DNA of 64,000 bases, taken from NCBI RefSeq assembly GCF_003046625.1, contig NZ_QAAD01000002.1, positions 186,001 to 250,000 of the forward strand, written 5' to 3'. The notes below the pieces were generated by a model. That model was not told the DNA's origin. It searched no databases and saw only the letters and a program-made list of their open reading frames with translations. The stretch is from Mangrovibacterium marinum (GTDB lineage Bacteria; Bacteroidota; Bacteroidia; Bacteroidales; Prolixibacteraceae). The stretch's first letter is position 1; the number at the start of each line of letters is the position of its first letter. Both the position numbers and the translations under genes were made by a program. This document shows, one piece after another, positions 43,721 to 55,441 of this stretch.

Positions 43721-43745
43721 ATAAATAAATAAATAAATAAATAAA
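43718..43745 (+). repeat. TAAA tetranucleotide microsatellite
   Basis: About seven TAAA units begin in the dnaJ stop codon and run to the terminator. Each unit holds an in-frame or out-of-frame TAA, so slippage would not extend DnaJ. Confidence 0.8.
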
Positions 43746-43771
43746 AAACCTCCCCCTCCGGGAGGTTTTTT
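43744..43771 (+). terminator. Terminator of grpE-dnaJ
   Basis: CCTCCC (43749-43754) pairs with GGGAGG (43760-43765), followed by TTTTTT. Confidence 0.8.
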
Positions 43772-44033
43772 ATTTTCCGAAATCCTACAACCGAATAAAG
43801 GCTGCTACTCATCGTCAAACACCAAAAGCAAAGACCTGCTTCAACTCAATAACCGGCACCGCCTCAGACCTTCGTTGCTATTGATAATTCGTCAAAATCA
43901 TCATTTCTTATTTTTAGCTTTTTGACAAGACTTTCCGGAACATCCAAACAAGTAAAAACCGAAGAAAAATCCCCGCTGTGGAGGCAAAAAACAACAAAAA
44001 CAACTTCTTAATTTTAAATTAACAGCAATTCGC
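43772..44033. other. Gap without a supported gene
   Basis: A+T-rich spacer between the dnaJ terminator and the his promoter. No ORF, repeat or RNA was recognised. Confidence 0.5.
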
Positions 44034-44064
44034 TTTGTTCAATTTCAATTTATAACTATACTTG
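44034..44064 (+). promoter_or_regulatory. Promoter of the histidine operon
   Basis: -33 box TTTG (44034-44037), exactly 19 bases, -7 box TATACTTG (44057-44064), one mismatch from TAnnTTTG. The start should lie near 44,070, so the leader peptide begins about 14 bases into the transcript. Confidence 0.75.
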
Positions 44065-44083
44065 CAACACAAAATACAGAACA

Positions 44084-44146
44084 ATGACATTCAATAACGG
44101 ACATCACGGCCATCATCATTTTTTCCTATTACAAGGTAGGCCGTAA
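44084..44146 (+). CDS. hisL: his operon leader peptide
   Basis: This tiny ORF of 20 codons reads MTFNNGHHGHHHFFLLQGRP. Five of its residues 7-12 are His, which only makes sense as a sensor of charged tRNA-His. The ORF ends inside the sequence that forms the antiterminator. Slow translation at the His codons would change RNA pairing downstream. It matches the logic of enterobacterial HisL, with a different sequence. Confidence 0.85.
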   Translation: MTFNNGHHGHHHFFLLQGRP

Positions 44147-44215
44147 TTCTTTTGTCCGCATTGAAACAAAAAATATTAACAAAAAGAAGGCTTACCATCA
44201 GGTAGGCCTTTTTTA
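44106..44215 (+). promoter_or_regulatory. Transcription attenuator of the histidine operon
   Basis: Four segments can be seen. Segment 1, ACGGCC (44106-44111), lies among the His codons and pairs with GGCCGT (44139-44144). Segment 2, GGTAGGCC (44135-44142), can pair with segment 3, GGCTTACC (44189-44196), as antiterminator. Segment 3 also pairs with segment 4, GGTAGGCC (44201-44208), as terminator. Segments 2 and 4 are identical eight-base strings. With scarce His-tRNA the ribosome would cover segment 1, free segment 2 and allow read-through into hisG. Confidence 0.8.
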
Positions 44216-44220
44216 TTTTT
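44187..44220 (+). terminator. Attenuator terminator before hisG
   Basis: AAGGCTTACC (44187-44196), loop ATCA, GGTAGGCCTT (44201-44210), then TTTTTATTTTT. The U-run ends 13 bases before the hisG ATG. Confidence 0.85.
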
Positions 44221-44232
44221 AACAAACTGATC

Positions 44233-45093
44233 ATGACACAATTGAAAATTGCCGTCCAAAACAAAGGACGCTTGTTTGAAGATTCGATGGACTTAATTAA
44301 AGAAACCGGAATCAAATTTTCGCTCGGCAGCAGCCGTGTGCTTCTGGCCTCGGCTAAAAACTTTCCAATGGAAGCACTTTTCCTGCGCGACGACGACATT
44401 CCGCAAACCGTTGCCGATGGGGTAGCCGACATCGGTATTGTTGGCGAAAACGAAGTGCTTGAAAAGAAAATGGACGTTGTTGTTGCCAAGCGTCTTGGAT
44501 TCAGTAAATGCCGCTTATCGCTGGCCATCCCCAAGTCTGATGATTACAAGGGGCCCGAATATTTTAACGGGAAAAAAATCGCCACTTCTTACCCGGTTAT
44601 CCTAAAAGACTGGCTCGATAAAAACAAGGTAAACGCCGAAATTCATGTCATCACGGGCTCTGTTGAAATCGCTCCCGGAATTGGTTTAGCCGATGCTATT
44701 TTCGACATCGTCAGCTCCGGTTCAACGCTGGTTGCCAACCGTCTGAAAGAAGTAGAGGTAGTGACGCCATCTGAAGCACTTTTAATCGCAACTCCGAATC
44801 TTTCATCTGAAAAACAAGCCATCCTCGACGAACTGATCTTCCGTTTGGAGTCTGTTCAGCGTGCTGAAGGTAAAAAATACATCGTCCTGAATGCTCCGAA
44901 AGAGAAAATCGCCGCAATTTCAGCGATTCTTCCCGGGATGAAAAGCCCAACTGTTACGCCGTTGGCAGAAGAAGGATGGGTATCCCTATCGTCGGTCATT
45001 GCTGAAAAAGAATTCTGGGAAATCATCGGAAAACTGAAAGAAGCCGGCGCCCAGGGAATTTTAGTAATGCCGATTGAAAAAATGATTCTCTAA
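44233..45093 (+). CDS. hisG: ATP phosphoribosyltransferase, long form
   Basis: The first enzyme of histidine synthesis joins PRPP to ATP. At 286 residues it is the long form with a C-terminal regulatory ACT-like domain (about 210-286), so feedback inhibition by histidine is expected and no HisZ is needed. Visible motifs: LKIAVQNKGRLFEDSMDLIK, VADGVADIGIVGENEVLE, and the PRPP loop GIGLADAIFDIVSSGSTLVA. It is the first structural gene after the attenuator. Confidence 0.97.
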   Translation: MTQLKIAVQNKGRLFEDSMDLIKETGIKFSLGSSRVLLASAKNFPMEALFLRDDDIPQTVADGVADIGIVGENEVLEKKMDVVVAKRLGFSKCRLSLAIPKSDDYKGPEYFNGKKIATSYPVILKDWLDKNKVNAEIHVITGSVEIAPGIGLADAIFDIVSSGSTLVANRLKEVEVVTPSEALLIATPNLSSEKQAILDELIFRLESVQRAEGKKYIVLNAPKEKIAAISAILPGMKSPTVTPLAEEGWVSLSSVIAEKEFWEIIGKLKEAGAQGILVMPIEKMIL

Positions 45094-45122
45094 TAACTTC
45101 TAACGGGAAAAAATCCACACGC

Positions 45123-46412
45123 ATGAAAACTTATATTGCTCCGGCCCCTGCTGAATGGCCGAAACTGCTGGAACGCCCCCTGTTCAATGCCAACGACCTG
45201 GCCGGGCGAGTGCAAGCCATTTTGAATGACATTAAAATTGAAGGTGAAGCCGCTGTTCGACGTTACACCGAAAAATTCGACGGCGTTGTTCTGGACGAGC
45301 TGGCCGTTAGCGACAGCGAAATTGAAGAGGCCATCGCACTGGTGGCTCCCGAACTGAAAGCTGCTATTGAAACAGCCGCCGGAAATATCCTGCGTTTTCA
45401 TGCGCAACAAGCCACCGAAACCCGCAAAGTTGAAACCACCCCCGGCGTTACCTGTTGGCAAAAAGCGGTGGCCATCGAAAAGGTTGGCCTCTACATTCCG
45501 GGGGGCTCCGCCCCGCTTTTTTCAACGGTTTTAATGTTGGCTCTTCCGGCCAAAATTGCAGGCTGCAAGGAAATCGTGTTGTGTACGCCTCCGGGAAAGG
45601 ATGGTAAAATCAACCCGGCCATCTTATTTGCAGCCAAGCTGGTAGGGGTTACAAAGATTTTCAAACTTGGTGGTGTTCAGGCGATTGGCGCAATGGCTTA
45701 CGGCGCCGGCCCAGTGCCCAAAGTGTATAAGATTTTTGGCCCGGGCAACCAATACGTCATGGCAGCCAAGCAACTCATCAGCATCAGCGACGTGGCCATT
45801 GACATGCCTGCCGGCCCATCCGAAGTGGCGGTTATGGCCGACGAATCAGCCAATCCGGCCTTCATTGCCAGCGACCTGCTGTCGCAGGCTGAACACGGCC
45901 CCGACTCACAGGTCGTGCTGGTAGCAAACTCAGGCAACCTGATTGAAGCTGTTCAGACCGAGCTGGACAAGCAACTCGAACAACTCAACCGGGCCGACAT
46001 CGCCTTAAAAGCCCTCGACAATAGCGTCGCTATCGTATTGGACAGCGAAGCAGAGATGGTTGAGCTAATCAACGAGTACGCCCCCGAGCACCTGATTATC
46101 TCCATGAAAAAATACCTGGAGGTAGCCGGGAAAATCACCAATGCCGGATCTGTATTTCTGGGCAATTACACCCCCGAGAGCGCCGGCGACTATGCCTCGG
46201 GAACCAACCACACCCTGCCGACAAACGGCTGGGCCCGTTCCTTCAGTGGGGTCAACCTCGACAGCTTTACAAAAAAAATAACCTTCCAGGAAATCACCGA
46301 ACAGGGTATCCAAAAGCTCGGCCCGGTTATCGAAACTATGGCTGCTGCGGAACAACTGGACGCGCACAAAAATGCAGTAAGCTTGCGCTTAAAAGCACTT
46401 ACAAACGACTAA
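45123..46412 (+). CDS. hisD: Histidinol dehydrogenase
   Basis: This 429-residue zinc enzyme catalyses the last two oxidations, L-histidinol to histidine with NAD. Key segments: VGLYIPGGSAPLFSTVLMLA, GGVQAIGAMAYGAGPVPKVY, SDLLSQAEHGPDSQVVLV (zinc-binding Gln/His) and NEYAPEHLIISMKK with catalytic Glu and His, and ASGTNHTLPTNGWARSFSG. It follows hisG by 29 bases. Confidence 0.97.
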   Translation: MKTYIAPAPAEWPKLLERPLFNANDLAGRVQAILNDIKIEGEAAVRRYTEKFDGVVLDELAVSDSEIEEAIALVAPELKAAIETAAGNILRFHAQQATETRKVETTPGVTCWQKAVAIEKVGLYIPGGSAPLFSTVLMLALPAKIAGCKEIVLCTPPGKDGKINPAILFAAKLVGVTKIFKLGGVQAIGAMAYGAGPVPKVYKIFGPGNQYVMAAKQLISISDVAIDMPAGPSEVAVMADESANPAFIASDLLSQAEHGPDSQVVLVANSGNLIEAVQTELDKQLEQLNRADIALKALDNSVAIVLDSEAEMVELINEYAPEHLIISMKKYLEVAGKITNAGSVFLGNYTPESAGDYASGTNHTLPTNGWARSFSGVNLDSFTKKITFQEITEQGIQKLGPVIETMAAAEQLDAHKNAVSLRLKALTND

Positions 46413-46427
46413 TGGAGATCAAGAACG

Positions 46428-47459
46428 ATGAACTTAGATAAACTATTACGCGAAAACGTTAAAAACCTGAAACCATACTCGTCGGCAAGAGATGAGTTTT
46501 CGGGTGAAGCAATGGTATTTTTGGATGCCAACGAAAACCCCTATAATGCGCCTTACAACCGCTACCCGGATCCACTGCAACGTCAGTTGAAAGAGAAAAT
46601 ATCGGGTATCAAAGGATGTGCTCCGGATAAGATTTTCCTGGGTAATGGCAGCGACGAGCCCATTGATCTCCTCTTTCGTGCTTTCTGCGAGCCAGGCAAA
46701 GACAACATTGTTTCCATCGACCCAACTTATGGTATGTACCAGGTTGCTGCCGATATCAATAACATTGAAGTTCGAAAGATTAAACTGAAGGAAGACTATA
46801 GTTTTTCGGCTGACGAACTATTGGGACAGGCCGATGAAAACAGCAAACTGGCTTTCGTTTGTTCGCCCAACAACCCAACAGCCAACCTGATGGACCAGGG
46901 AGAAATGCTGAAACTCATTCAAAATTTCAAAGGCTTGGTTGTGGTCGACGAAGCTTACATCGACTTTGCGCCGGGTGCCAGTTTGTTGCCCGAGCTCGAT
47001 CGTTATCCCAATCTGGTGATCCTGCAAACCTTCTCCAAGGCTTGGGGAATGGCCGGCATCCGACTGGGGATGGCTTTCGCCTCTCCCGATATCATTAAAA
47101 TCTTCAACAAGATTAAATATCCCTACAACATCAACATCCTGACGCAACAAAAAGCCCTGGAGTTGATTGAGCAGGAAACCGAAAAGAACGCCTGGGTAGA
47201 AACGCTTCTGGCAGAACGTACAAAACTGAGCGAACAACTGAAGGCTTTTCCTTTTGTTGTAAAAATTTACCCTTCCGATGCCAACTTTCTACTGGTCAAG
47301 TTGCACGACGCCCGCGGAATTTACGACTACCTGGTTGAAAATGGCGTCATCGTTCGCGACCGCTCCAAGGTAATTTTGTGCGACGACAGCCTTCGAATCA
47401 CAGTCGGCTCACCGGAGGAAAATGAGATACTGATTGAGAAACTAAAAGAACTAATATAG
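46428..47459 (+). CDS. hisC: Histidinol-phosphate aminotransferase
   Basis: A 343-residue fold-type I PLP enzyme converting imidazole acetol phosphate to histidinol phosphate. [18 protein letters not shown] at the start, [23 protein letters not shown] (Asp for the pyridine nitrogen) and [16 protein letters not shown] with PLP-binding Lys204 are present. It follows hisD by 15 bases. Its stop is three bases before the first inverted-repeat cassette. Confidence 0.97.
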
Positions 47460-47461
47460 AA

Positions 47462-47878
47462 AATATCCAATATCGGATACTCAATAACCAATATCCAAGG
47501 ATGAATACCGAATCGAGAATTTTTGATCTGGAAGACCGCTTAATTGACTTTGCTCTGAAAGTTGATGAAATCGTTGAAAAACTTCCAAATACGAGGTTAG
47601 CCAATCATTTGGCTGGTCAAGTTGTTCGAAGCAGTACTGCTCCGGAACTGAACTACGGAGAAACGCAGTCTGCTGAATCACAACGCGATTTCATTCACAA
47701 AATGCAGATCATTTTGAAAGAACTTCGGGAAACAAGAGTGACATTGAAAATTATTCTTCGCAAACCGTTGTTGCCATTCGAAGTTGTTGATTCTGTTCTA
47801 AAAGAAAACGAAGAATTGATAGCCATTTTTGCTAAAAGCATTAAAACGGCCAAGTCGAAGCTATCTTAATTGGATATT
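47462..47878. repeat. Inverted-repeat cassette 1 (carries four-helix-bundle ORF)
   Basis: AATATCCAAT (47462-47471) and ATTGGATATT (47869-47878) are perfect inverses that bracket the ORF 47501-47869. A second ATATCC string lies at 47491-47496. The cassette fills the hisC-hisB gap exactly, with hisB starting 37 bases later. Confidence 0.6.
47501..47869 (+). CDS. Four-helix-bundle protein (S23/23S rRNA intervening-sequence family), copy 1
   Basis: 122 residues, all helical: [60 protein letters not shown]. The [15 protein letters not shown]-like segment is the mark of the family first found as ORFs inside intervening sequences of 23S rRNA genes. Function is unknown; the fold is a pentamer-forming four-helix bundle in known cases. 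It has no place in histidine synthesis. It lies between hisC and hisB, same strand, inside inverted repeats. Confidence 0.8.
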
Positions 47879-47915
47879 CAAAATTGTTTATTCATTATTC
47901 GAAATTATTAACACT

Positions 47916-49037
47916 ATGAAGAAAGCTCTTTTCATCGATAGAGACGGAACCCTGATTATTGAACCGGCGGACGAGCAAATCGACTCGCTGGAAAAACTGG
48001 AGTTCCTGCCCAAGGTTTTCCGCAATATGCATTTTATTGCCAAAAACCTCAACTACGAGTTGGTGATGGTGACCAACCAGGACGGTCTCGGAACTGATTC
48101 ATTTCCGGAGGACACCTTCTGGCCGGCACACAACAAAATGCTGAAAGCGCTCGAAAATGAAGATGTTGTTTTTGACGACATTTTAATCGACCGTCATTTT
48201 CCGCACGATAACGCGCCTACCCGCAAACCGGGCACCGGAATGATGGGCAAATACATGGACGGCAGTTACGACCTGGCCAACAGCTTTGTGATTGGCGACC
48301 GCCTGACCGACATCATGCTGGCTAAAAACCTTGGGGCTAAAGGAATCCTGATCAGCGACGGCTCATTGGTCGATGAAATGAAAGCACAAGGGCTGGAAGA
48401 CTTCTGCGCTTTGATAACCAACGACTGGGACGATATTTACGCACGCGTTGCTGCTCCGGAACGTACCGCCCGCGTTGAACGCAACACCAAAGAAACGAAG
48501 ATCCTCGTCGAGCTGAACCTGGATGGAACCGGCAAAGGAAACATCTCAACCGGGCTCGGCTTCTTCGACCACATGCTGGACCAGATTGCCCGCCACGCCG
48601 GAGTTAACCTGACGGTAAAAGTTGAAGGCGACCTGCAGGTAGACGAACACCACACCATTGAGGACACCGGACTGGCACTGGGAGAAGCGTTCAAGATCGC
48701 TTTGGGCGACAAACGAGGCGTGGAACGTTACGGCTACTGCCTGCCTATGGACGATTGTCTGGCCCAGTGCGCCATCGACTTTGGCGGACGCCCCTGGATT
48801 GTATGGGACGCCGAGTTCAAGCGCGAAAAAGTCGGCGACATGCCAACGGAGATGTTCTTCCACTTCTTTAAGTCATTTTCCGACACCTCGCTTTCGAACC
48901 TGAATATTAAAGCTGAAGGCCAGAACGAGCATCACAAAATCGAAGGAATCTTTAAAGCGCTGGCCCGCGCCATAAAAATGGCAATTAAGAAAGATGTGTT
49001 TAACTTTGAGCTTCCTTCAACTAAAGGAACCTTGTAG
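47916..49037 (+). CDS. hisB: Bifunctional histidinol-phosphatase / imidazoleglycerol-phosphate dehydratase
   Basis: 373 residues in two enzymes. The N-terminal HAD phosphatase (1-165) begins [17 protein letters not shown] with the nucleophile Asp; [17 protein letters not shown] and [19 protein letters not shown] follow. The Cys ligands of the E. coli zinc loop are absent: that loop reads [15 protein letters not shown]. The C-terminal dehydratase (from about 180) has [33 protein letters not shown] and [16 protein letters not shown], the Mn-binding His residues. The frame is open from 47829, but the ATG at 47916 is the family start. Confidence 0.95.
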
Positions 49038-49045
49038 CAAAACGA

Positions 49046-49503
49046 ACCACAAAGAACGCAAAGACTTGCACAAAGCACACGAAGTATGAATGATTTGGAA
49101 GACACGTTTAAATTGATACTCGACAATTCGTTTAAAGTACACTCAGCATTAGGGCCGGGGCTTCTTGAAAGTGCCTATGAAGAATGCCTGGCGTATGAAT
49201 TGCTTCAATGCGGCTTATTTGTGGAACGCCAGAAAGCACTGCCTCTGGTTTACAAAGATGTAAAACTGGATGCTGGCTACCGGGTCGACTTGATGGTTGA
49301 ACGAAAAATCATCATCGAAATTAAATCGATTGATGCACTGGCTGATATTCATTTGGCTCAAATACTAACTTATATGAAACTGTCCGATTCAAAACTCGGG
49401 CTCTTGGTTAACTTTAATGTAAAAAAACTCAAAGACGGCATTAAACGAGTTATCCTATAACTCTTTTGTGACCTTCGTGAAAAAACTTAGCGCCCTTTGT
49501 GGT
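49046..49503. repeat. Inverted-repeat cassette 2 (carries GxxExxY ORF)
   Basis: The left arm at 49046-49084 starts ACCACAAAGAACGCAAAG; the right arm at 49463-49503, read in reverse complement, starts ACCACAAAGGGCGCTAAG. The arms of about 40 bases stay similar to the end (CAC.AAG, then CAC..AAG), an imperfect long inverted repeat. They enclose only the GxxExxY gene. The hisB stop is 8 bases before, and purU starts 12 bases after. Confidence 0.8.
49086..49460 (+). CDS. GxxExxY family protein (PDDEXK-like)
   Basis: 124 residues. The naming motif is GPGLLESAYEECLAYEL. The core YRVDLMVERKIIIEIKSID has the Asp...Glu-x-Lys arrangement of PD-(D/E)XK nucleases, so nuclease activity is possible but unproven; the family function is unknown. 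The genes are frequent in Bacteroidota, often among unrelated genes. Here it stands between hisB and purU on the same strand, inside a 40-base inverted repeat. Confidence 0.85.
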   Translation: MNDLEDTFKLILDNSFKVHSALGPGLLESAYEECLAYELLQCGLFVERQKALPLVYKDVKLDAGYRVDLMVERKIIIEIKSIDALADIHLAQILTYMKLSDSKLGLLVNFNVKKLKDGIKRVIL

Positions 49504-49515
49504 AAAAAATAGAAT

Positions 49516-50400
49516 ATGAAAAGCATCAAACAACTTCGTGAAAAAAAGAATACAGCGATTCTTTTAATACACTGCCCCGATAAACAAGGAATTTTGGCAA
49601 CAGTTACTGAATTTCTGAATGAAAATAACGGCAATATTATCTACCTGGATCAATATGTCGACCGCGTTGAAAAGATTTTTTACATGCGGGTTGAGTGGGA
49701 ACTGGAAGGTTTTGCCATTCCCGCGGATAAAATCAAAGAATATTTCGACACGCTGATTGCCTCGAAACTGGAAATGGATTACTCGATCCATTTTTCGAAA
49801 CAGATGCCCCGCATGGCCATCTTCGTTTCCAAGATGTCGCATTGTTTGTTCGACATCCTTTCGCGCTACACCGCCGGCGAATGGGATGTTGAAATTCCGC
49901 TGATCATCAGCAACCACAAAGACCTGGAGCCCGTTGCTCAGCGTTTCGACATTGCCTTCCACTACATTCCGGTAACCAAGGAAAACAAAGCCGAACAGGA
50001 AGCCCTGGAAATTGAACTGCTGAAAAAATACAAAGTCGATTTCATTGTCTTAGCTCGATACATGCAGGTTCTTTCTCCGGAGTTTGTCAGCAAGTACCCC
50101 AACCGGATTATCAACATTCACCACTCGTTTCTCCCCGCTTTTGCAGGGGCTAAGCCTTACCATGCCGCACATGCCCGTGGTGTGAAGATTATTGGTGCCA
50201 CCAGCCACTACGTGACCAGCGAGTTGGATGGAGGCCCGATCATTGAACAGGATGTAACCCGCTGCAGCCATATTGATACGGTTGAACGCCTGGTTCGCAA
50301 AGGGCGCGACCTGGAGAAGATTGTCCTGTCGCATGCCGTATTCAAGCATCTGCAGCGCAAAATTTTGGTTTACAAGAACAAGACCGTCGTCTTTAACTAG
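49516..50400 (+). CDS. purU: Formyltetrahydrofolate deformylase
   Basis: 294 residues. An N-terminal ACT domain (ILLIHCPDKQGILATVTEFL, about 14-90) is followed by the formyltransferase-like catalytic domain with IINIHHSFLPAFAGAKPYHAA and GATSHYVTSELDGGPIIEQDV, which carry the catalytic Asn, His and Asp. It hydrolyses 10-formyl-THF to formate and THF, balancing one-carbon pools. HisF/HisH releases AICAR, which consumes 10-formyl-THF in purine synthesis, so a metabolic link with the operon is plausible, though inferred. Confidence 0.93.
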   Translation: MKSIKQLREKKNTAILLIHCPDKQGILATVTEFLNENNGNIIYLDQYVDRVEKIFYMRVEWELEGFAIPADKIKEYFDTLIASKLEMDYSIHFSKQMPRMAIFVSKMSHCLFDILSRYTAGEWDVEIPLIISNHKDLEPVAQRFDIAFHYIPVTKENKAEQEALEIELLKKYKVDFIVLARYMQVLSPEFVSKYPNRIINIHHSFLPAFAGAKPYHAAHARGVKIIGATSHYVTSELDGGPIIEQDVTRCSHIDTVERLVRKGRDLEKIVLSHAVFKHLQRKILVYKNKTVVFN

Positions 50401-50412
50401 TAACGATATTTT

Positions 50413-50949
50413 ATGAAGAAATTGAAGAACACGCTGAAAAGCATCATTAGCCTAATTGCAATATTTGCAGGCATCAACGCCTCGGCCCAAACGGACTATG
50501 GCTACCTTGTGAAGGTCGGCGATCGGGCTCCGGATTTTGAAACAACAACTCCCGATGGGACGATCGTCAAACTTTCGGATCTGCGCGGAAAGGTTGTGAT
50601 GCTTCAATTTACAGCCAGCTGGTGCAGCGTTTGCCGCAAAGAAATGCCGCATATTGAAGCCGATATCTGGAACAAACACAAGAGCAATCCCGATTTCGCC
50701 CTGTACGGAGTGGATCTGGATGAACCGGCGGAGAAAGTCGAAGCCTTTGCCCAACAAATACCGGTGAGCTACCCGCTGCTGCTCGATGCGAAAGGAGAAA
50801 TTTTCTACCAATATGCTGAAAAAGGAGCCGGCGTCACCCGCAACGTTATCATCGACAAAAACGGTAAAATTGTTTTTCTCACGCGGCTTTTCAAGCAAGA
50901 AGAGTTTGACCAGATGAAAGCTGTAATTGAAGAATTGCTGAAAAAATAG
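50413..50949 (+). CDS. TlpA-like thioredoxin-fold protein, exported
   Basis: 178 residues: an N-terminal signal sequence (SIISLIAIFAGINASAQ, cut after SAQ) and a redoxin domain with VGDRAPDFETTTPDGTIVKL and MLQFTASWCSVCRKEMPH (Cys71, Cys74). The cis-Pro residue is replaced near AGVTRNVIIDKNGKI (Thr before Arg), unlike the TlpA protein at 41.2 kb which has Ile-Pro, so its redox partner or rate may differ. It follows purU by 12 bases, in the his transcript. No role in histidine synthesis is known. Confidence 0.85.
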   Translation: MKKLKNTLKSIISLIAIFAGINASAQTDYGYLVKVGDRAPDFETTTPDGTIVKLSDLRGKVVMLQFTASWCSVCRKEMPHIEADIWNKHKSNPDFALYGVDLDEPAEKVEAFAQQIPVSYPLLLDAKGEIFYQYAEKGAGVTRNVIIDKNGKIVFLTRLFKQEEFDQMKAVIEELLKK

Positions 50950-50952
50950 TAC

Positions 50953-51406
50953 AGAAGTACGAAGTACATGAGTTCATAAGTACTTCCACAAACGAAATAA
51001 TCGACGATGAAAACCTACCGTGAATTTGTTGCCTGGCAAAAAGCCATGACCTTTGTAACCAAAGTGTATAAGACTACCCGCAATTTTCCTCGCGAGGAGT
51101 TATTTGGGCTCACAAGTCAGATCCGAAGGTCAGCGATTTCGATTCCCTCAAATTTTGCAGAGGGCTTTGGACGGAAAGGCAACAACGAGTTTCTACGTTT
51201 CATCCGCATTGCTATCGGTTCACTTTATGAATGTCAAACTCAATTAGAAATCGCATTCAATATTGAATACCTTGAAATGCAAAAATTCGAAGAACTTTTC
51301 GAACAAAGCAGAGAAATTGAAGCGCTGTTAAGGGGACTAGAAAAGAAATTATCGGCCCAAAACTCATGAAATCATGTACTTTACACTCATGAACTAAAAT
51401 TAAAAC
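50953..51406. repeat. Inverted-repeat cassette 3 (carries four-helix-bundle ORF)
   Basis: Left end GAAGTACATGAGTTCATAAG (within 50953-50996) and right end 51366-51406, whose reverse complement reads AGTACATGATTTCATGAG, form an imperfect inverted repeat. The right end begins inside the ORF stop codon. Both ends are repeated, without an ORF between them, at 52864-52947. Confidence 0.75.
51007..51369 (+). CDS. Four-helix-bundle protein (S23/23S rRNA intervening-sequence family), copy 2
   Basis: 120 residues with the classic family pattern: WQKAMTFVTKVYKTTRNFP, EELFGLTSQIRRSAISIPSN, FAEGFGRKGNNEFLRFIRIA and GSLYECQTQLEIAFN. It is clearly a different branch from copy 1 at 47.5 kb (few shared residues outside the R-S/S-I-P area). 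It lies between the redoxin gene and hisH, same strand, inside an inverted-repeat cassette. Function unknown. Confidence 0.9.
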   Translation: MKTYREFVAWQKAMTFVTKVYKTTRNFPREELFGLTSQIRRSAISIPSNFAEGFGRKGNNEFLRFIRIAIGSLYECQTQLEIAFNIEYLEMQKFEELFEQSREIEALLRGLEKKLSAQNS

Positions 51407-51408
51407 CC

Positions 51409-52008
51409 ATGAATTTAGTCATCATCAAATACAACGCCGGGAACATTGAGTCGGTGAACAACGCACTGGAGAGATTGGGCGTAAAAGCTGAAATTACCGG
51501 CGACCACGAGAAAATAAAAGCGGCCGACAAGGTCATTTTTCCGGGAGTTGGCGAGGCCAGCACAACCATGGCTTTCCTCAAACAAGAAGGCCTGGACAAA
51601 CTGATCCCCTCCCTCAAACAGCCGGTTTTAGGCATCTGCCTCGGACTGCAACTGATGTGCAGCCATTCGGAAGAAGGCGACACAGCTTGCCTCGGTATTT
51701 TCGAAGAAAAAGTGAAACGCTTTCAACCAAAACCGGGCATGGAGTACGTCACCAAAGTACCGCACATGGGCTGGAACACGATTACCAACCTGAAAAGTGA
51801 CCTGTTCGACGCGTCTCTGCAAGACCAGTTCGTATACTTTGTTCACTCGTACTACGCAACGGTGGGAGAACACACGGCTGCAGTGGGCAATTACATCAAC
51901 CCGTTTAGCGCGGCTTTGCACAAAGACAATTTTTACGCCACCCAGTTTCACCCTGAAAAAAGCGGAACTGTAGGCGCCAGGATCTTGGAAAACTTTATAA
52001 AATTATAA
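51409..52008 (+). CDS. hisH: Imidazole glycerol phosphate synthase, glutaminase subunit
   Basis: 199 residues, class I glutamine amidotransferase. VLGICLGLQLM carries nucleophile Cys77, and QFHPEKSG the His181/Glu183 pair; the PGVGEAS oxyanion strand is also present. It supplies ammonia to HisF through the barrel. Its ATG lies directly after the right end of cassette 3. Confidence 0.97.
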   Translation: MNLVIIKYNAGNIESVNNALERLGVKAEITGDHEKIKAADKVIFPGVGEASTTMAFLKQEGLDKLIPSLKQPVLGICLGLQLMCSHSEEGDTACLGIFEEKVKRFQPKPGMEYVTKVPHMGWNTITNLKSDLFDASLQDQFVYFVHSYYATVGEHTAAVGNYINPFSAALHKDNFYATQFHPEKSGTVGARILENFIKL

Positions 52009-52122
52009 GCCCCTCCTAACCTCCCCGAAGGGGAGGAACAAAGAAGGCGAACAGATAAGAACTTTTTAGTAAAACTTCAAAAAAACGATTCCCCCTCCCT
52101 CGGAGGGGGCTAGGGGGAGGCC
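52009..52122. repeat. Inverted pair of GC-rich hairpins without ORF
   Basis: Hairpin CCTCCCCGAAGGGGAGG (52020-52036) and hairpin CCCCCTCCCTCGGAGGGGG (52091-52109) each fold on themselves. The left block CCCCTCCTAACCTCCCC and the right block in reverse complement (CCTCCCCCTAGCCCCCTCC) are variants of the same sequence, so the pair forms a larger inverted repeat with a 54-base A-rich centre. It fills the hisH-hisA gap. Confidence 0.75.
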
Positions 52123-52127
52123 TATTT

Positions 52128-52853
52128 ATGATTACAATAATCCCAGCCATCGACCTGATCGACGCCAAGTGCGTGCGCTTGTCTCAAGGCGATTACAATC
52201 AAAAGACTGTTTACAACGAAAATCCGCTCGAAGTAGCCAAGATGTTCGAAGATGCCGGAATTACCCGTCTTCACCTGGTTGACCTGGATGGCGCCAAAGC
52301 CAAACACATTGTCAACTACAAAGTTCTGGAAACCATCGCCTCTAAAACCAACCTGGTAATCGACTTCGGAGGTGGGTTGAAAAGCGATGAAGATCTGCGC
52401 ATCGCCTTCGAAAGCGGCGCACAAATGGTTACCGGCGGAAGTATCGCAGTGAAAGACCGGGAAACTTTCCTGAGTTGGATTGAAACCTACGGAGCCGAAA
52501 AAATCATACTTGGAGCCGATGCTAAAGACAAGAAAATCGCGGTAAGTGGCTGGCAGGAAGTTTCGGAACTGCCGATCCTCGATTTTATCGATGGCTACAC
52601 ACAAAAAGGCATCCAAAAAGTGATCTCAACCGACATTGCCCGCGATGGTATGTTGAGTGGACCAAGTATTGAGCTTTACAAAGAAATATTGGATCAATTC
52701 CCGAAACTGGAATTAATTGCCAGTGGCGGAATCGCGTCGATGAAAGATATTATTGAACTGGACGAGATGGGCGTGCCCGGCGTAATTACCGGCAAAGCCA
52801 TTTACGAAAACAGAATCAGTTTGGAAGAAATTGAAAAGTACATAAGTAAATAG
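52128..52853 (+). CDS. hisA: ProFAR isomerase
   Basis: 241 residues forming a TIM barrel that isomerises ProFAR to PRFAR. The N-terminal [20 protein letters not shown] holds catalytic Asp9; [15 protein letters not shown] and [20 protein letters not shown] (second catalytic Asp) are the phosphate-binding half-barrel repeats. It is preceded by the hairpin pair at 52.0-52.1 kb. Confidence 0.97.
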
Positions 52854-52863
52854 TCCATTCGTG

Positions 52864-52947
52864 TATAAGTCCAAAGTACATAAGTTCCGATAACGAACAC
52901 CACTTATGGACTTATGAACATCGCACTTATGAACTCAAAATCAAAAC
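52864..52947. repeat. ORF-less copy of the cassette 3 termini
   Basis: The left part (AAGTCCAAAGTACATAAGTTC ends at 52887) matches the left end of cassette 3 (GAAGTACATGAGTTC), and the right part CACTTATGAACTCAAAATC matches its right end CACTCATGAACTAAAATT. ATAAGTCCA (52865-52873) and TGGACTTAT (52907-52915) form a perfect nine-pair stem. No ORF lies inside. It fills the hisA-hisF gap. Confidence 0.75.
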
Positions 52948-52953
52948 TGCATC

Positions 52954-53709
52954 ATGCTTGCAAAACGAATAATACCATGCCTGGATATCAAAGACGGTCA
53001 GACCGTGAAGGGCATCAACTTTGTCAATATAAAAAGTGTGGGAGACCCGGTTGAACTGGGCGCGATGTACGCCGAGCAAGGAGCCGACGAGCTGGTTTTC
53101 CTCGACATTACCGCGACCCACGAAGGCCGCAAAACCTTTGTTGACCTGGTGAAACGCATCGCCCGCGAAATCAACATTCCTTTCACAGTTGGCGGCGGCA
53201 TCAGCGAACTGAAGGATGCGGAAGCCCTGTTGAGTGCCGGTGCCGACAAGATCAGCATCAACTCATCGGCTGTGCGCAACCCGAAACTGATCGACGAGCT
53301 GGCCCTCAATTTCGGAACACAGTTCGTGGTGGTTGCCATCGACGCCAAAAACTACGATGGCCGCTGGACGGTAACTGTCAATGGAGGCCGCATTCCAACC
53401 GACAAAGAGTTATTCTCGTGGGCCAAGGAAGCGGAAAATCGGGGCGCCGGCGAGATTCTGTTCACCTCGATGGATCACGATGGAACGAAAGCTGGTTTTG
53501 CCAATGCCGAATTGTCGAAAATGGCCGACATGTTGAAAATCCCGATCATCGCCTCCGGCGGTGCCGGTAACATGGATCACTTTGTCGATGTTTTCACCAA
53601 AGGAAAGGCCGATGCCGGACTGGCAGCAAGCATCTTCCACTACAAGGAAATTGCCATCCCCGATTTGAAGCATTACCTGAAAAACAAAGGTATTGCAGTT
53701 CGCGAATAA
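52954..53709 (+). CDS. hisF: Imidazole glycerol phosphate synthase, cyclase subunit
   Basis: 251 residues, TIM barrel. [20 protein letters not shown] carries catalytic Asp11, [20 protein letters not shown] the second catalytic Asp, and [15 protein letters not shown] binds phosphate. With HisH it makes imidazole glycerol phosphate and AICAR. It lies 100 bases after hisA. Confidence 0.97.
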
Positions 53710-53742
53710 GCTGACTATCTTTAGGACTCTCAAGTTACAACC

Positions 53743-54834
53743 ATGAAACCAGTGCCACAGCAACAGTTATTCGAATCAATCAGGCAAGTGCTAAACAGCG
53801 CCTGGAAAAACATTTACCGCGCAACCAACTCGAACATGGTCGTTGCTTACTGGCAAATTGGCAGGCTAATTGTTGAAGACGAGCAAAACGGTGAGTCCCG
53901 CGCCGATTACGGCAAGATGATCCTGCAAGAACTTTCCGGGAAACTCACGGAAGAATTTGGACGAGGATTCTCCGTTACGAACCTCAAAAACTTCCGGAAA
54001 TTCTACCTGACTTTCCCGGAAATACAGGGAATTCACGGTGAAACTGATGATCAAATGCAAAAAAGTCAGACAGTGTCTGACTTATTGAGCTGGTCACATT
54101 ACTGCCTGTTAATGAAGGTTGAAGATATCGAAGCCCGCAACTTTTACATTCAGGAATCGATAAACCAGAACTGGAGTGTCAGAGCCCTCGACCGGCAAAT
54201 CAGCACCTTGTATTACGAACGATTGCTGTCCAGTCAGGATAAATTGGCCATTCAACAAGAGGCCGAATCAAAAACGAACGATCTGAAAGACTCAGCACGC
54301 GACTTCATTAAAGATCCCTATATTCTTGAATTTTTGAAATTAACGCCGGGGAATACTTACCTGGAGAAAACACTCGAAAATTCGCTATTAGAAAATCTTC
54401 AGTCCTTCATTCTCGAACTGGGAAAAGGTTTTGCCTTTGTTGGCCGTCAGTACCACATCAATGTAGGGAACGAGCATTACTACATCGATTTGGTCTTCTA
54501 TAATTACATCCTGAAATGCTTTGTATTGATGGATCTGAAGGTGGGTAAATTAACCCACCAGGATGTCGGGCAGATGGACATGTATGTTCGCCTGTTTGAG
54601 GAAAAAATTCGACAAAATGACGACAACCCCACAATCGGAATCATTTTGTGTTCTCAACAAAACGAGTCGGTTATTAAATATTCGGTCTTGGCCGAAAACA
54701 AACAACTTTTCACGTCAAGATACAAGCTGTACCTTCCGACTGAAGAAGAATTGAAAAAAGAAATTGAACGCGACCGAATTCATATTGAAAACCGGTTACA
54801 GGAAGAATTTGTAAAATATTATTCAAAAAAATAG
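53743..54834 (+). CDS. DUF1016 / YhcG-family PDDEXK nuclease
   Basis: 363 residues in the two-domain layout of the family. The N-terminal DUF1016_N part has VVAYWQIGRLIVEDEQNG, YGKMILQELSGKLTEEFGRG and NLKNFRKFYLTFPE. The C-terminal nuclease part (from about 210) has FAFVGRQYHINVGNEHYYID, then LVFYNYILKCFVLMDLKVGK, giving the Asp...Asp-x-Lys metal site, and DVGQMDMYVRLFE. The family is spread by transfer and sometimes found near restriction-type genes; its biological role is unsettled. It stands between hisF (33 bases) and hisIE (10 bases) without inverted repeats. Confidence 0.85.
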   Translation: MKPVPQQQLFESIRQVLNSAWKNIYRATNSNMVVAYWQIGRLIVEDEQNGESRADYGKMILQELSGKLTEEFGRGFSVTNLKNFRKFYLTFPEIQGIHGETDDQMQKSQTVSDLLSWSHYCLLMKVEDIEARNFYIQESINQNWSVRALDRQISTLYYERLLSSQDKLAIQQEAESKTNDLKDSARDFIKDPYILEFLKLTPGNTYLEKTLENSLLENLQSFILELGKGFAFVGRQYHINVGNEHYYIDLVFYNYILKCFVLMDLKVGKLTHQDVGQMDMYVRLFEEKIRQNDDNPTIGIILCSQQNESVIKYSVLAENKQLFTSRYKLYLPTEEELKKEIERDRIHIENRLQEEFVKYYSKK

Positions 54835-54844
54835 CATCATAATT

Positions 54845-55441
54845 ATGTCTCAAGTAGATTTTGAAAAAATGAATGGCCTGGTTCCGGCCATCATCCAGGA
54901 CAACAACACCAACAAAGTGTTGATGCTTGGTTTTATGAACGAAGACGCACTGGCAAAAACCGAAGAGCTGGGCAAAGTAACTTTCTTCAGCCGCACCAAA
55001 AACCGTCTTTGGACCAAAGGTGAAGAAAGCGGAAACTTCCTGAATGTTGTTTCAATCGCCTCAGACTGCGACAACGACACACTGCTGATTAAAGTGAACC
55101 CGGTTGGGCCGGTTTGCCACACCGGCAGCGACACCTGCTGGAACGAAACGAACTCGGAAGATGTAATGTTCCTGAAATACCTGCAGGATTTCATTGACAA
55201 GCGCAAGGAAGAAATGCCGGAAGGATCGTACACCACTTCCTTATTCCAAAAAGGAACACGCAAAATCACGCAAAAAGTAGGTGAAGAAGCTGTTGAAACC
55301 ATCATTGGCGCCATGGCAAACGACGACGAAAACTTCCTGTACGAGGGAGCCGATCTGCTTTATCACCTCATCGTTCTGCTAACACACAAAGGTTACCGGA
55401 TCGAAGATTTGGCCCGCGAACTGAAAAAACGCCACAAATAA
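54845..55441 (+). CDS. hisIE: Bifunctional PR-AMP cyclohydrolase / PR-ATP pyrophosphatase
   Basis: 198 residues. The N-terminal HisI half has MLGFMNEDALAKTEELGKVT, FFSRTKNRLWTKGEESGN and PVCHTGSDTCW, the zinc-binding Cys motif. The C-terminal HisE half has FQKGTRKITQKVGEEAVETI and GADLLYHLIVLLTHKG. The fusion catalyses steps 2 and 3 of the pathway. It is the last gene of the operon, closed by a strong terminator. Confidence 0.96.
   Translation: MSQVDFEKMNGLVPAIIQDNNTNKVLMLGFMNEDALAKTEELGKVTFFSRTKNRLWTKGEESGNFLNVVSIASDCDNDTLLIKVNPVGPVCHTGSDTCWNETNSEDVMFLKYLQDFIDKRKEEMPEGSYTTSLFQKGTRKITQKVGEEAVETIIGAMANDDENFLYEGADLLYHLIVLLTHKGYRIEDLARELKKRHK

Follow-up and report, generated by a model that had tools for sequence, protein, structure and literature searches.

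The region at positions 44034–44232, immediately upstream of hisG, is very probably, as read from its sequence, a complete attenuator of the his operon, of the classical kind in which a translating ribosome controls transcription. It lies within the 64 000-nucleotide stretch of Mangrovibacterium marinum DNA that was analysed (the window). The anatomy is present in full and is conserved in the family, all three helices pair, and there is one coordinated change of segments 2, 3 and 4.

Architecture of the leader

The elements of the leader are as follows.

44034–44064, + strand: promoter of Bacteroidota type from sequence reading, with TTTG (−33) at 44034–44037, a 19-base spacer and TATACTTG (−7) at 44057–44064
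44084–44146, + strand: leader open reading frame MTFNNGHHGHHHFFLLQGRP of 20 codons, from ATG at 44084 to the stop codon TAA at 44144–44146
44102–44119, + strand: regulatory codons CAT CAC GGC CAT CAT CAT, five His and one Gly (HHGHHH)
44106–44114, + strand: segment 1, ACGGCCATC, within the His codons; pairs with segment 2 as the protector hairpin
44135–44144, + strand: segment 2, GGTAGGCC at 44135–44142, extended by GT to 44144; 5′ strand of the antiterminator, encodes GRP and abuts the stop
44153–44154, + strand: conserved TG (in TTTTG) after the leader stop; T 79/80, G 79/80 in alignment A1 (see below)
44173–44177, + strand: nearly invariant ATATT in the linker, its successive bases being kept in 79, 78, 80, 75 and 69 of the 80 sequences of A1
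44183–44214, + strand: intrinsic terminator hairpin with a six-T run at 44209–44214, from folding and a terminator scan
44189–44196, + strand: segment 3, GGCTTACC, single copy; common to the antiterminator and the terminator
44201–44208, + strand: segment 4, GGTAGGCC, identical to segment 2; 3′ strand of the terminator

Bacteroidota promoters have the consensus TTTG/TAnnTTTG, and 19 bases separate the 3′ end of this one from the leader ATG. In 84 of 89 family loci a −7 box of the form TANN[ACT]TTG is located 6–34 bases 5′ of the leader ATG, compared with a mean of 3.4 and a maximum of 9 loci after shuffling. No Shine–Dalgarno sequence is evident 5′ of the leader in the window. The His codons occupy 44102–44107 and 44111–44119. 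The T tract ends at 44214, 18 bases before the hisG ATG at 44233, or 12 bases before it if a second T stretch to 44220 is counted.

The original prediction had named the promoter, the 20-codon leader with HHGHHH (five His in six codons), two copies of GGTAGGCC competing for one GGCTTACC, and an intrinsic terminator, and all of these are present. It had placed the leader stop inside segment 2. The 8-base segment ends one base before the stop, and the first base of that codon falls inside only when the segment is taken as far as 44144, the length needed for it to pair with the His codons. The terminator does precede hisG, though by the distances given above rather than by 13 bases. Segment 1 had been missed, so the scheme of alternate 2:3 and 3:4 pairings was incomplete.

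Folding of the three helices

The terminator stretch folds at −13.8 kcal/mol, compared with −4.2 kcal/mol for shuffled sequences, and none of 200 shuffles is as stable. Segment 1 forms a helix with segment 2 and two further bases (GGTAGGCCGT) at −10.4 kcal/mol, again with 0/200 shuffles as stable. The fold of the full leader comprises the 1:2 hairpin together with the terminator (−40.2 kcal/mol, z = −6.5, 0/200 shuffles). When the RNA starts after the His codons and ends before segment 4, segments 2 and 3 pair instead in the computed fold. The logic of protector, antiterminator and terminator is that of the classical his attenuator. The 1:2 helix pairs His codons with segment 2, and this explains the conserved Gly codon in the His run. 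The fold of the window sequence also contained an outer stem, formed between bases close to the beginning of the leader and others beyond its stop; it was dropped, many relatives being seen by eye to lack it.

Stalling, pausing, termination, read-through and the response to histidine are what we infer from this arrangement. Transcription would begin just before the leader, with the ribosome trailing the polymerase. With ample histidyl-tRNA the ribosome would reach the stop at 44144 and cover segment 2, allowing the 3:4 terminator to form and transcription to end near 44214. Under a shortage of histidyl-tRNA the ribosome would wait on the His codons at 44102–44119, breaking the 1:2 hairpin and freeing segment 2. 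This could then pair with segment 3, no terminator would form, and hisG and the downstream genes would be transcribed. If there were no translation segments 1 and 2 would pair, giving the terminator by default. The conserved TG, some 10 bases past the 1:2 hairpin, is probably a pause that would let the first ribosome catch up.

That TG lies 9–10 bases beyond the protector hairpin, and from its sequence context is a likely candidate for an RNA polymerase pause. Pauses in E. coli have the consensus G−10 Y−1 G+1, with the hisL hairpin upstream (PMC9291695). The site here matches at Y−1 and G+1, and has its G at −11, not −10. A TG or a TATGT-like string is seen by eye at a similar distance in the order set. 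No pairing partner for the ATATT at 44173–44177 was seen on inspection of 80 leaders by eye.

Conservation of the leader in the family

Of 140 genomes of the family, 123 contain a hisG that was detected, and the upstream regions of 90 of these were analysed. The prediction clearly passes the conservation check that had been proposed for it. A His-rich leader precedes hisG in 89 of the 90 regions, and in 0/90 of their reverse strands; L112 is the exception. An open reading frame with at least five His in seven codons occurs in 16/90 regions, 0/90 reverse strands and 0.0% of 900 shuffles, and one with at least four in 74/90, 0/90 and 0.2% respectively. At a threshold of three His in seven codons the shuffles give 4.3%. 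Counting against an attenuator are the absence of a leader from L112 and, by the same criterion, from 15 of 56 upstream regions at the level of the order.

The pairing was analysed in an alignment (A1) of 80 distinct leaders; of 87 sequences, the 7 whose segment 2 differs were excluded. The terminator helix 3:4 is paired in 98.8% of cells, and the protector helix 1:2 in 94.2%. Taken jointly these two helices are paired in 96.7% of cells (slid versions ≤56.4%), with seven pairs changed on both sides, and 0/500 shuffles are as high on any measure. The two-sided changes are mostly in the terminator, affecting 6 of its 11 pairs; helix 1:2 contributes one pair, in one sequence only. The antiterminator helix 2:3 is paired in 97.8% of cells, with slid versions at ≤55.5%. 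It fails to exceed its shuffle control (355/500 shuffles as high) because it is nearly invariant. The best sequence support for helix 2:3 is a coordinated change in L152 and L155, where a C to T change in segment 3 (ACT for ACC) is found with G to A at the start of both segments 2 and 4. The two loci are from the same genus, so that this may be, and probably is, one event.

A second type of leader, ending in HHLP or similar, is found in L151, L153, L156, L158, L160, L166 and L168. Its segment 2 is GGTGAGC or GGTAAGC and is located 3′ of the stop; by eye, it can pair with the last codons, the stop lying in between.

A terminator was detected by script in 86 of the 89 family leaders, and in the remaining three (L154, L166 and L168) the hairpin is present with a T run below the cut-off. 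Two other ways in which the leader might work were weighed. Leader reading frames close to genes have been proposed to raise translation in several phyla including Bacteroidetes (PMC4833913), and the leader could act on the translation of hisG by coupling or reinitiation, the hairpin and T run marking only a boundary. We give this very little likelihood, because 86 bases lie between the leader stop and the hisG start, with the −13.8 kcal/mol intrinsic terminator between them kept in those 86 of 89 loci, and the hairpin does not cover the hisG start. Lower still is the probability of a constitutive terminator, such that most transcripts always end at 44214 and hisG is served by a second promoter. 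Gaps of up to 192 bases before hisG in some relatives could hold such a promoter, but the gap in the window is 18 bases, and the His codons and the competing segment 2 would be left without explanation.

Peptide code and RNA pairing

The RNA of segment 2 is unchanged across three reading frames of the leader, which account for 68, 11 and 3 of 82 loci. The commonest frame gives Gly-Arg and then Pro, Leu, Gln or Ser before the stop, while in the second frame the stop codon TAG is inside segment 2. In 82/82 loci the first base of the stop codon lies between −8 and +22 bases from the start of segment 2, so a ribosome at the stop would cover the segment. In the family loci the last His codon ends 8–21 bases 5′ of the start of the pairing. 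Judged against the size of the ribosome footprint, the leader stop is placed such that a terminating ribosome would hide segment 2, and the His codons such that a stalled one would not.

Across the leaders, nine residues are encoded by the codon preceding the conserved Gly, but its third base is C in 75 of 78, and the Gly itself is GGC in 68 of 78; both features are what the 1:2 pairing would require. The His codons are kept while much of the other leader sequence varies across the family. RNA pairing appears to constrain the end of the peptide and the Gly interrupting the His run, and decoding appears to constrain the His codons.

The segments are so strongly conserved as RNA that the switch might be thought to lie in the RNA alone, or in the binding of a metabolite or protein to it in the manner of a riboswitch or T-box, with the His reading frame incidental. 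This is very improbable. No Rfam family, the T-box model included, is matched at gathering score in the window (cmscan, 0 families), the His codons are kept as described, and the stop keeps its place next to segment 2 whichever frame is used; on these grounds the riboswitch and T-box readings were set aside. Moreover, the His leader is retained beyond the family even where the segments are unrelated, as with TCAAGCG and CGTTTGA in f6.

Specificity, and other leaders in the genome

A covariance model built on A1 gives one strong match in the M. marinum genome, before hisG (E = 7.4e-18), the next listed having E = 0.22. In a search of 61 genomes, 58 have a match at E up to 1; the many weak matches are surely due to chance. 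Two complete his-type leaders are found in tandem upstream of hisG in one genome (G074; L281:79–208 and 373–501), and a further tandem pair is present in another (G398; L276:1337–1471 and 1496–1618).

In the M. marinum genome itself, tandem leaders rich in Val, Leu and Ile, MKISAIISNVVVLLVVVISQAK and MKHYSTYHLVVLLLVILSSF (L253:1410–1478 and 1555–1617), precede a gene that we take to be ilvD from its start and its place; a terminator-like hairpin and a T run come after each leader. On the reverse strand of L255 (1327–1383) a Trp-Trp-Trp leader precedes a chorismate-binding gene of the trpE type, and behind the leader stands a strong terminator hairpin that has its own T run. No leader was found before the aspartokinase gene (L254) by the criterion of the script. 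From the Val/Leu/Ile and Trp leaders in the same genome, attenuation is probably a general habit of M. marinum.

The controlled operon

The his unit and its surroundings contain the following features.

43739–43775, strand not set (terminator-like, listed on −): symmetrical 16-pair hairpin that has T/A runs and separates dnaJ from the his unit
44233–55441, + strand: unit of hisG, hisD, hisC, a 23S_rRNA_IVP gene, hisB, a PDDEXK_3 gene, purU, an AhpC/TSA gene, a 23S_rRNA_IVP gene, hisH, hisA, hisF, a DUF1016 gene and hisIE
47501–47869, 49086–49460, 51007–51369 and 53743–54834: small inserted genes (23S_rRNA_IVP, PDDEXK_3 and DUF1016 type) in intergenic spaces of the his operon, differing from one close relative to the next

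The upstream hairpin is a probable terminator insulating the his leader from upstream transcription. The 14 genes run in the same direction with gaps of 10–119 bases, and would form a single transcript. hisG (TIGR00070) and hisB are assigned; the other his genes are presumed from their sequences to be as named. A GC-rich hairpin (52091–52109) is present in the 119-base gap between hisH and hisA, and no T follows it on the + strand.

It had been suggested that passenger genes come under histidine control. The shared direction of the 14 genes fits this, but not all the additional genes are passengers. The his operons of 5/5 relatives include purU and the AhpC/TSA-type gene, which are therefore regular members; the idea that all are hitchhikers was rejected for these two. 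The PDDEXK_3 and DUF1016 genes are in the his operon of 0/5 relatives, and the two 23S_rRNA_IVP genes are variable among these.

Breadth across Bacteroidota

A His leader is present in 41 of 56 hisG upstream regions of the order set, which overlaps the family; that of L071 is probably a chance match, and the regions without a leader include loci titled Paludibacter and Prevotella. In the class set it is found in 40 of 40 sampled genomes (reverse strands 2/40), and in the phylum set in 29 of the 30 best-scoring loci (reverse strands 1/30). Requiring at least four His gives 35/40 and 22/30 respectively, and 0 on the reverse strands. Among the four loci of f22 the leaders of L180, L189 and L198 are unconvincing, and L192 has none.

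The leader is followed by a terminator in 38/41 cases in the order, 32/40 in the class and 16/29 in the phylum. Among terminator-bearing leaders, a complementary segment beating 95 of 100 shuffles is found in 26/38, 21/32 and 5/16 respectively, and with the last of these values the antiterminator is least sure at phylum distance. Pairing segments of other families of the class are unlike those of the window; those of f6, quoted above, still have segment 2 within the end of the leader.

Absence of the terminator follows lineage, being 12/12 in f24 (L172–L176, L182, L184, L186, L191, L197, L199 and L200) and 5/5 in f3 (L204, L207, L209, L218 and L232), compared with 0/19 in f6 and 0/8 in f17. 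In the phylum set all 13 terminator-less spacers have more C than G (skew 0.30–0.62); the 16 with a terminator range from −0.31 to 0.22. This composition makes Rho-dependent control a possibility in the terminator-less lineages.

DISCUSSION

The hisL leader of E. coli and Salmonella (RF00514, His leader) encodes a peptide with a His run and forms three hairpins, with the terminator before hisG. The region in the window resembles it in the His-run peptide, in the protector, antiterminator and terminator hairpins, and in the location of the terminator. They differ in that E. coli has an unbroken run of seven His, whereas the window has five in six codons broken by Gly, and in that the window has a Bacteroidota promoter with no evident Shine–Dalgarno sequence before the leader. 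In hisL a pause site follows the first hairpin (PMC9291695); in the window the conserved TG is a candidate for one. RF00514 has no match at gathering score in the window (cmscan).

Among the comparative studies of attenuators are said to be those of Vitreschak and others (2004), which reportedly may mention Bacteroidetes/Chlorobi, and of Lopatovskaya and others (2010), the latter cited in PMC4833913. Bacteroidota his attenuators may have been published before, and priority is not claimed. In the same phylum and before the same gene, a structured 5′ element of hisG in Flavobacteriaceae and clues to leader-peptide attenuators in Flavobacterium psychrophilum have been reported (PMC9723704); that element is set beside the window by its description, which in the part of the paper available is given without alignment, segments or codons. 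Short reading frames in long 5′ UTRs of Bacteroides thetaiotaomicron are reminiscent of attenuation leader peptides (PMC7366714), and the terms ‘histidine’, ‘his operon’ and ‘hisG’ are absent from the main text of that paper. In Firmicutes a His-codon leader with a terminator precedes hisS and hisZ (PMC2965389), likewise outside Proteobacteria, though with other genes in another phylum, and likened here by description. A paper on the his genes of the superphylum mentions attenuation once in its available text, for S. enterica and E. coli (PMC8305728).

Surveys place amino-acid attenuators mostly in Proteobacteria and Actinobacteria (PMC3766115, PMC2965389). That of 2013 considers that they may originate in γ-proteobacteria, with very few transfers (PMC3766115), and that of 2010 states that, until its own case in Firmicutes, Proteobacteria and Actinobacteria were the only phyla in which leader-peptide systems had been shown (PMC2965389). 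The his leaders across Bacteroidota contradict these placements. The kind of switch is already known; this member and the breadth in the phylum appear little described in the open PMC text searched, and it is the breadth that is the surprise. The remark in the original prediction that fewer descriptions of such attenuation exist for Bacteroidota is fair for the literature consulted, but in biological terms the attenuation is widespread in the phylum.

We lean, by a small degree, towards a broader view in which control of hisG by a His-codon leader would be an old and near-universal trait of Bacteroidota. The pairing segments would have been replaced over time, and in some lineages the terminator would have been supplanted by a leader rich in C and poor in G, on which Rho could load. 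In the family of the window, the His run, the Gly codon and the last three codons would be read twice, once as peptide code and once as the RNA of the switch. The leaders provide a model for annotators of short leader genes that are missed by pipelines. Bacteroidota mostly lack Shine–Dalgarno initiation. If the broader view is true, ribosome and polymerase would be closely coupled at these leaders in such a phylum. The his leaders offer a ready in vivo test of transcription–translation coupling in Bacteroidota.
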